Shown here one piece after another: positions 12,308-14,232 of a stretch of DNA of 20,294 bases. The position numbers and the translations under genes are program-made. Within the stretch, counting starts at the first letter, position 1. Every line of letters begins with the position of its first letter. Location: IMG/VR virus record IMGVR_UViG_3300027752_000144, positions 1 to 20,294 of that record. One strand, written 5' to 3'. The notes under the pieces are model-generated. The model worked only from the letters and a program-made list of their open reading frames with translations, did no database searches and was not told the origin of the DNA. This DNA is from a virus.

Positions 12308-12344
12308 TACGACCCATCCCCTCTCCTTTGGGTGTCCACCACGC

Positions 12345-12426
12345 GCCGTCCGTGGGTACGAAGACGGCATTATTTAGACCCACAGGTATGTGCATCGTAC
12401 CTGTAACGGCACGTTCCCGTCCGTGC
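12345..12426 (+). ncRNA. Candidate structured leader RNA with H-type pseudoknot
   Basis: GCCGTC (12345-12350) pairs perfectly with GACGGC (12363-12368). GTGGGT (12352-12357), within that loop, pairs perfectly with ACCCAC (12378-12383) downstream. Connecting loops are 1, 5 and 9 bases, the last AU-rich, a geometry that fits a classical H-type pseudoknot. Two more hairpins follow: AGGTA/TACCT (12384-12388 with 12398-12402) and GCACG/CGTGC (12409-12413 with 12422-12426). A strong terminator comes next at 12453. The order (folded domain, then terminator, then gene) is that of a riboswitch or attenuator. I do not recognise a known class, and the ligand, if any, is unknown. Confidence 0.45.
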
Positions 12427-12452
12427 GGTCGAAGGCGGGGCTAATTTAGTTT

Positions 12453-12485
12453 GCGTGTTGGGGGAGACCCCCTTCACGCCTTTTT
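12453..12485 (+). terminator. Rho-independent terminator directly upstream of the alpha-CTD-like gene
   Basis: The stem has two blocks: GCGTG (12453-12457) with CACGC (12475-12479), and GGGGG (12460-12464) with CCCCC (12468-12472). A TT/TT internal loop separates the blocks and AGA closes the loop. C and five T (12481-12485) follow. It is one of the strongest hairpins in the window. The next ATG is only 15 bases after the T-run, leaving no room for a promoter, so downstream genes need read-through, antitermination or a promoter further upstream. Confidence 0.85.
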
Positions 12486-12499
12486 GCATGGGAGCAATA

Positions 12500-12706
12500 A
12501 TGAAAATAGAAGAATTAAATATAGATATTCGTGTTAGAAATGGTCTCTGGTCAGAGGGTATTTACGATGTAGAAGACCTAAGCCTTTGGACAGCTAAGGA
12601 TTTAGCAACTATTCCTAACTTCGGGTGGAAATCTCTTATAATCTTAATAGACGCTTTAGCCAAGGAGAATCTTTGTTTTATAGGAAGCGGTGTTAAATGC
12701 AGATAG
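12500..12706 (+). CDS. Stand-alone RNA polymerase alpha C-terminal-domain-like protein
   Basis: 68 residues from ATG 12500 (GGGAG upstream); a longer frame from 12455 would start within the terminator and is rejected. Residues 6-58 align without gaps to E. coli RpoA 260-312 (recalled), with about 20 identities by eye. The DNA-contacting residues are kept: Arg11 (R265), Asn14 (N268), Gly42 (G296), Lys44 (K298) and Ser45 (S299), in IRVRNG and PNFGWKS. C269 and E302 equivalents are changed. The fold should be the helix-hairpin-helix of alpha-CTD, which binds UP elements and activators. With no alpha N-terminal domain it could compete for UP elements or activators, or redirect host polymerase; this is inference. 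It overlaps the SNF2 gene by ten bases. Confidence 0.85.
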   Translation: MKIEELNIDIRVRNGLWSEGIYDVEDLSLWTAKDLATIPNFGWKSLIILIDALAKENLCFIGSGVKCR

Positions 12707-14232
12707 TAGATAACAGAGCAGTATTACTCAAACTTAGGAACCCAGCGAAGGTGACGCAGATCATTCCTAAGAGTAAAGAGTTGTCTGGCAACAGAGTGGT
12801 AGTTAATTGGGGCGTAGAAGAAGCCCGTGTGTTAAAGAACTTAAATATAAACATACCTTCCCCGATACGTTCTAGGTACGAGTGGACAGGTAAGTACGAA
12901 CCTATGAAGCACCAGAGAACAACTTCTGAGTTCTTTACGTTGCACAAACGCGGGTTCTGCTTTAACGAGCAGGGTACGGGCAAGACCGCCAGTGCTATAT
13001 GGTCTGCGGACTACCTGCTGAACGAGGGCCACATCAACCGTGTATTAGTGATATGCCCTTTGTCTATCATGCACTCGGCGTGGGTAGACGATCTGTTTAC
13101 ATTCGCCATGCACCGTACAGTAGATGTTGCTTATGGCCCCGCCCCCAAGCGTAGGGAGATCATAGAACGTGGAGCAGAGTTCGTGGTCATTAACTACGAC
13201 GGTGTAGAGATAGTAGCTGACACCATAGCCAACGGTGGGTTTGATCTAATTATTGTAGATGAAGCTACCCACTACAAGAACCCACAGACGAAGCGGTGGA
13301 AGACCCTTAACAAGTTATTAAATTCAGATACGTGGCTGTGGATGATGACCGGCACACCAGCAGCGCAAAGTCCGTTGGATGCCTATGGTCTGGCTAAACT
13401 TGTTAACCCTAATTCAGTGCCACGGTTCTTCAGTGCGTTCAGAGATCAAGTCATGTACAAGGTGACTAACTTCAAGTGGGCGCAGAAAGATACGGCAACC
13501 GATACCGTATATAACGCACTTCAACCTGCCATACGGTTCACCAAGGAAGAGTGCCTAGACCTACCAGACATGGTTTATGTAAAACGAGAAGTAGAACTTA
13601 CTCGACAACAGACTAAGTACTACAAAGAACTTAAAAATAAAATGGTCATGCAAGCTGCGGGAGAACAGATAACTGCTGTAAACGCAGCGGTAGGTATGAA
13701 CAAGCTGTTACAAATATCAGCCGGTGCTGTCTACACCGATGACGGAAGTTCTTTAGAGTTTGATATTAAGCACAGGTACAAGGTGCTGCGCGAGGTCATA
13801 GATGAATCGAGTAAGAAGGTACTTGTGTTCGTACCGTTCAGGCACGTTATAGACATACTATCTGAGAAGTTAACGGCTGATGGTATATCCACTAGCATAA
13901 TTCGCGGTGATGTGTCGGGCGCAAGACGTACCGAAATCTTCAAACAGTTTCAGCAGACAGACACACCACAAGTTCTTGTCATACAACCGCAAGCCGCTGC
14001 CCACGGGGTTACGTTAACCGCTGCGAATACAGTGGTGTGGTGGGGGCCGACCAGTTCTTTAGAGACGTACGCACAAGCTAATGCCCGTGTTCACAGGAAG
14101 GGGCAAGACCATAAGTGTACGGTGGTACAGCTACAAGGTTCAGCGGTAGAGAAGCGAGTGTACTCACTATTAGATAATAGAATTGACGTACATACAAAAA
14201 TGATTGATTTATACAACGAAATACTTGATTAA
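12697..14232 (+). CDS. SNF2-type DEAD-like helicase
   Basis: 511 residues, a compact SNF2/superfamily 2 ATPase. Motifs in order: KHQ (71-73), Walker A QGTGKTAS (92-99), motif Ia VICPLSI (118-124), motif II VDEATH (187-192), motif III MMTGTP (216-221), motif V HGVTLTAANTVVWWG (436-450) and motif VI QANARVHRKGQ (460-470), which supplies the arginine finger. All ATPase motifs are intact. Phage members of this size translocate on double-stranded DNA in replication or recombination, but the exact role is rarely known. AGGAAG precedes the start, and the gene is coupled to the alpha-CTD-like gene. A promoter for the next block overlaps its 3' end. Confidence 0.92.
   Translation: MQIVDNRAVLLKLRNPAKVTQIIPKSKELSGNRVVVNWGVEEARVLKNLNINIPSPIRSRYEWTGKYEPMKHQRTTSEFFTLHKRGFCFNEQGTGKTASAIWSADYLLNEGHINRVLVICPLSIMHSAWVDDLFTFAMHRTVDVAYGPAPKRREIIERGAEFVVINYDGVEIVADTIANGGFDLIIVDEATHYKNPQTKRWKTLNKLLNSDTWLWMMTGTPAAQSPLDAYGLAKLVNPNSVPRFFSAFRDQVMYKVTNFKWAQKDTATDTVYNALQPAIRFTKEECLDLPDMVYVKREVELTRQQTKYYKELKNKMVMQAAGEQITAVNAAVGMNKLLQISAGAVYTDDGSSLEFDIKHRYKVLREVIDESSKKVLVFVPFRHVIDILSEKLTADGISTSIIRGDVSGARRTEIFKQFQQTDTPQVLVIQPQAAAHGVTLTAANTVVWWGPTSSLETYAQANARVHRKGQDHKCTVVQLQGSAVEKRVYSLLDNRIDVHTKMIDLYNEILD

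Follow-up and report, generated by a model that had tools for sequence, protein, structure and literature searches.

The C-terminal domain of the alpha subunit (alpha-CTD) is the part of bacterial RNA polymerase that grips A/T-rich DNA on the upstream side of promoters, and activators, CRP and Spx among them, are known to dock on it as well. Described phage factors act on host alpha itself: Alt and ModA of T4 ADP-ribosylate Arg265 of alpha (PMC2988021), and Rac of phiKMV-type phages leads to cleavage of alpha (PMC7552054). Phage genes that encode an alpha-CTD domain of their own are already known by annotation, among them ORF 40 of Erythrobacter phage vB_EliS-L02 (PMC9127768), gp005 of Bacillus phage Goe8 (1959-2591, about 2 kb from the genome end; the Goe8 record holds a second alpha-CTD match elsewhere, two matching places in all), gp26 of Microbacterium phage Mazun, and genes of a Microcystis phage and a Morganella phage. 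Many further alpha-CTD matches in INPHARED were set aside, as they have the appearance of contaminating bacterial rpoA or of complete rpoA genes. A functional study of a phage alpha-CTD was not found in the open-access literature, where these proteins appear as annotation only. The original prediction, which could name no characterised phage protein of this exact form, agrees with this, but several phages do have relatives identified by annotation.

The window, that is the whole stretch of viral DNA analysed here (20,294 nucleotides), contains an open reading frame for a 68 amino acid protein at positions 12500-12706 on the plus strand. It starts with ATG, is preceded by the ribosome-binding site GGGAG, and its stop codon falls inside the next gene. 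In a Pfam profile search the protein matches RNA_pol_A_CTD (PF03118) with 39.9 bits (E 3.4e-10; cut-off 23.8 bits), and it is the sole PF03118 match within the window. A better match to another helix-hairpin-helix (HhH) family was sought and not found: the next Pfam family, HHH_5, reaches 16.7 bits, under its cut-off of 27 bits, and no RuvA or ligase HhH family is listed at E values up to 10. Searches against NCBIfam matched the protein to the C-terminal parts of rpoA models and gave no stand-alone family above cut-off; PHROGs gave zero matches for phage alpha-CTD proteins. The solved sequences matched by phmmer are nearly all RNA polymerase alpha. The gap-free alignment to alpha-CTD that had been predicted is thus borne out by the profile match, as is the missing N-terminal assembly domain, since the 68 residues make up the bare domain. 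The protein is not an RpoA subunit, because it lacks the domain that dimerises and binds beta/beta'.

Relatives of the gene fall into two clades. Clade 1 comprises eight close relatives in viral contigs, the window included, which are 83-100% identical; clade 2 comprises eight contigs with 38-42% identity to the window protein. The PF03118 scores of the relatives range from 27 to 40 bits, and clade 2 scores 45.6 bits. Between the two clade-2 lineages dN/dS is 0.14-0.16, and the protein is therefore under selection; the clade-1 values (0.2-1.2) come from substitution counts that are too small. An alternative GTG start at 12455 (83 amino acids) was rejected, as the extension is not conserved and its frame differs between relatives. 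Because the ATG is shared by the relatives, the upstream extension is not conserved and dN/dS in clade 2 is low, the reading frame at 12500-12706 looks like a genuine coding sequence. When the phage alignment was used to search genome contigs, the only matches were actinobacterial rpoA genes. Some marine phages carry a bare alpha-CTD as a swappable 68-residue gene.

A first structural model, built from six near-identical phage sequences only, was poor (mean pLDDT 56.9). It was replaced by a model from a wide alignment consisting of phage clades 1 and 2, the domain of a Ruegeria phage and seven rpoA C-termini, which has a mean pLDDT of 88.6. Comparison with Foldseek and VIA-align 2 showed that the best solved matches of this model are alpha-CTDs, with Z up to 10.7 and 1.3 A over 62 residues; from the E. 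coli alpha-CTD the predicted fold differs by 1.3 A. The matches include complexes with UP DNA (3n97) and with A/T-rich DNA (9zum); PDB entries 1lb2 and 1z3e are also among them. The unrelated HhH domains of Dmc1 and Rad51 score lower (Z about 8). The predicted four-helix HhH fold supports the alpha-CTD identity, yet the rpoA rows of the alignment pull the model in that direction, and it is support rather than independent proof. The independent evidence is the profile match of the sequence itself, which points to the same identity.

The gap-free alignment equates R11, N14, N40, G42, K44 and S45 of the window protein with R265, N268, N294, G296, K298 and S299 in E. coli numbering. These residues and E302 form the UP-DNA face of the E. 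coli alpha-CTD. Six of the seven are present in the window protein, the equivalent of E302, a further DNA-face residue, being Ile. The prediction that R265, N268, G296, K298 and S299 are kept is correct for the window protein, but only in part for its relatives: R265, N268, G296 and S299 are invariant across both clades, and likewise in the phage and rpoA sequences, but K298 is replaced by Asp in clade 2, where N294 is replaced by Gly. Positions 259, 261 and 286-288 are altered compared with E. coli and vary between relatives, whereas the DNA face is kept. In the E. coli alpha-CTD, 259/261 and 285-288 are the sigma and activator contacts. The residues W284, T285 and K287 are common to both clades.

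The next gene (12697-14232, plus strand, ATG at 12697) encodes a SNF2-family helicase (phrog_62, 378.6 bits); its first 10 bases are shared with the end of the alpha-CTD gene. The alpha-CTD gene lies directly upstream of a SNF2 helicase in both clades, either overlapping it or within a few bases. It is carried by four of the 80 helicase loci closest to that of the window. Two contigs (L148 and L149) have a helicase that is 99.4% identical to that of the window and no alpha-CTD gene; here the hairpin of the leader described below runs directly into the helicase start. In four other contigs (L003, L004, L006 and L007) the alpha-CTD genes are 91-99% identical in DNA and the adjoining helicases 70-72%, and near-identical alpha-CTD copies adjoin helicases of 75% protein identity. 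The gene is absent from isolate phages with this helicase; in Rollin, RHph_TM, Effie and Xp15 the helicase is preceded by small genes, none of which encodes an alpha-CTD. At five loci (L154, L173, L181, L187 and L214) the same slot before the helicase is occupied by other small, unrelated genes with no assigned function. The G+C content of the alpha-CTD gene is 36% (30% at third positions), compared with 47% for the window. Given the phages with an empty site, the divergent helicases beside near-identical copies and the low G+C content, the gene moves between phages independently of the helicase, and the comparison identifies it as an accessory cassette that is exchanged between related marine phages. 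We take such behaviour as evidence that the protein is not a dedicated subunit of the helicase but functions in trans, and it probably acts on DNA or transcription without depending on the adjacent helicase. The comparison also shows that alpha-CTD domains travel as cassettes among abundant marine phages.

Upstream of the gene, on the plus strand, lies a leader of 192 bases (12308-12499). It contains two H-type pseudoknots separated by a hairpin, followed by a G+C-rich hairpin with a T run. The first pseudoknot (12339-12368; stems CCACG/CGTGG and GCCGTC/GACGGC) was found in a scan and in the alignment of relatives, the second (12409-12439; stems GCACG/CGTGC and CCCGTC/GGCGGG) in a scan and by covariation of the family. 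The general layout is a first stem of five pairs, TT, CCCGTC, the second strand of stem 1, a loop that often ends with CGAA, and GGCGGG. Among 107 places in viral contigs selected for a match to the second stem plus GAA only, the first stem is complete and in the expected register in 34, compared with an expectation of 0.8; most other registers have 0-1 cases, and registers that slide along the same helix have 5-11. In 22 aligned pseudoknots, two-sided changes were observed in all five stem-1 pairs and in three of the six stem-2 pairs, with a score of 0.425 versus 0.121 for shuffled alignments, this set being preselected for pairing, so that the register count at the 107 places is the unbiased test. 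Of the 75 leaders examined for this helicase, 20 carry pseudoknots, compared with zero among 240 control pieces. They also occur before other marine phage genes, often in tandem, and are about 31 nt long; members of the family were seen at L002-L007, L034, L050, L142 and other relatives. Rfam gave no match for the leader or the pseudoknots, and the 31-nt pattern was not found in isolate phages of the group. The family is possibly an undescribed phage regulatory RNA, and the covarying pseudoknots may be more novel than the alpha-CTD gene.

The terminator-like hairpin with its T run (12452-12487, plus strand; identified by scan and folding) immediately precedes the ribosome-binding site and lies 12 bases from the ATG of the alpha-CTD gene. 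It is kept in relatives with and without this gene, in the latter before the helicase. The T run is too near the start codon for a promoter to fit in the gap; RNA polymerase would therefore have to read through the hairpin to reach the alpha-CTD and helicase genes, and this suggests that the hairpin acts in attenuation or is under antitermination control. Elsewhere in the window, a 28-nt repeat around AAGTTAGTACGTACGTACAAG is present in three copies (294-321, 470-497 and 806-833) that are 82-93% identical; these copies are possible candidates for binding sites.

Since the DNA face is kept, the other surfaces are lost and the gene behaves as a cassette, a trans-acting DNA-binding factor is favoured. 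Our first choice for its role, made because host polymerase uses this domain at A/T-rich DNA and held tentatively, is that the free alpha-CTD competes with tethered host alpha-CTDs at A/T-rich, UP-like DNA. The cassette, inserted between the structured RNA leader and the helicase gene, would have its protein made together with the replication proteins. The protein, most likely working in trans, would sit on UP-like, A/T-rich stretches in promoters of the host or the phage, and this occupancy would bring it into competition with the tethered alpha-CTDs of the host polymerase. We infer DNA binding by the 68-residue protein from its sequence and, less firmly, that its targets are promoters and its effect is competition. 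That it mimics alpha-CTD at UP elements, as originally proposed, is possible. A point against competition is that one alpha-CTD without a tether should bind DNA weakly; the loss of K298 and N294 in clade 2 and the Ile at the E302 position of the window protein also count against this explanation. A more far-reaching proposal, which we consider improbable, is that the free minimal alpha-CTD is an exchangeable transcription weapon: made under the pseudoknot leader, it would displace host alpha-CTDs from UP-type DNA and lower the activity of rRNA and other strong host promoters, while UP-independent phage promoters continue. With two natural clades, of which one lacks K298 and N294, and with L148 and L149 as natural counterparts of the window that do not have the gene, the question becomes testable with a protein of 68 residues.

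Alternatively, the protein might be a generic HhH DNA-binding protein with a role outside transcription, in DNA protection, packaging, replication or counter-defence. This reading is doubtful; in its favour, alpha-CTD-like domains occur in unrelated proteins and the gene is located within a replication cluster. As a control, 119 genomes of one phylum, the Actinomycetota, were searched with PF03118. The non-RpoA matches above cut-off were long open reading frames with 25-56 bits. Four were examined and identified by reading their sequences: one is a beta' subunit whose tail resembles alpha-CTD, another is kinase-like, and the remaining two carry segments similar to sigma region 4. The beta' frame (L246, complement strand, 1485 amino acids) is actinobacterial and has the domain near its C-terminus; similar long frames are present in about ten of the 119 genomes. 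L248 and L249 are the proteins in which alpha-CTD-like domains are joined to sigma-region-4-like segments, and the kinase has a NERD-like N-terminus. Together with a phage pyrophosphatase fusion, the kinase is an example of the domain in an unrelated setting. The two short frames (84 and 129 amino acids) each lie at the beginning of a contig and probably represent truncated rpoA genes. Several of the non-RpoA proteins keep R265, N268 and G296, and the named residues are therefore not diagnostic of UP elements; they mark the alpha-CTD-like HhH group and probable DNA binding. Against a generic HhH protein stands that both the sequence and the predicted fold are nearer to the RpoA alpha-CTD than to other HhH families.

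That the protein is a DNA-binding accessory of the SNF2 helicase, with the HhH domain helping the helicase to find or hold DNA during phage replication, is unlikely. Proteins of replication and repair often make use of HhH domains, and the genes overlap or abut in both clades, but the empty sites beside a nearly identical helicase, the near-identical copies beside divergent helicases, the four carriers among 80 loci and the isolate phages without the gene all speak against it. The suggestion that the HhH fold is merely reused for DNA binding near the helicase is weakened likewise, as the gene is not co-inherited with its neighbour. Least likely among the alternatives is a decoy for host proteins that bind alpha-CTD (an activator, sigma region 4 or some other factor), which would need no DNA and for which the docking role of the domain and the matches to 1lb2 and 1z3e count, but capture of a CRP-like activator, as originally proposed, is disfavoured by contact surfaces that differ and vary between relatives while the DNA face is kept, even if W284, T285 and K287 could form a docking patch of another kind.

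Compared with known systems, the window protein resembles the C-terminal domain of RpoA in its gap-free alignment, its predicted fold and the residues R265, N268, G296 and S299 (in clade 1 also K298 and N294). It differs from RpoA in that it has neither assembly domain nor linker, in its 259/261 and 286-288 surfaces and in being a phage gene. With the annotated phage proteins it shares an alpha-CTD domain in a phage gene that is not a full RpoA, but the named ones are mostly 111-240 amino acids long with extra sequence, whereas the window protein is the minimal, bare-domain form, located at a SNF2 helicase locus. Gene 23 of Ruegeria phage vB_RpoS-V16 is 40-43% identical over the conserved part and keeps R265, N268, N294, G296, K298 and S299; it differs in being 288 amino acids long, with the alpha-CTD-like domain fused to a pyrophosphatase-type domain (L014:4923-5786). 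T4 Alt and ModA and Rac are likewise phage factors that target the function of this domain, but they are enzymes that modify or cut host alpha and not copies of the domain. If competition by the free alpha-CTD is indeed its role, supplying the domain in free form would give phages another way to reach the target that T4 attacks by modification of R265 and phiKMV-type phages by cutting alpha.
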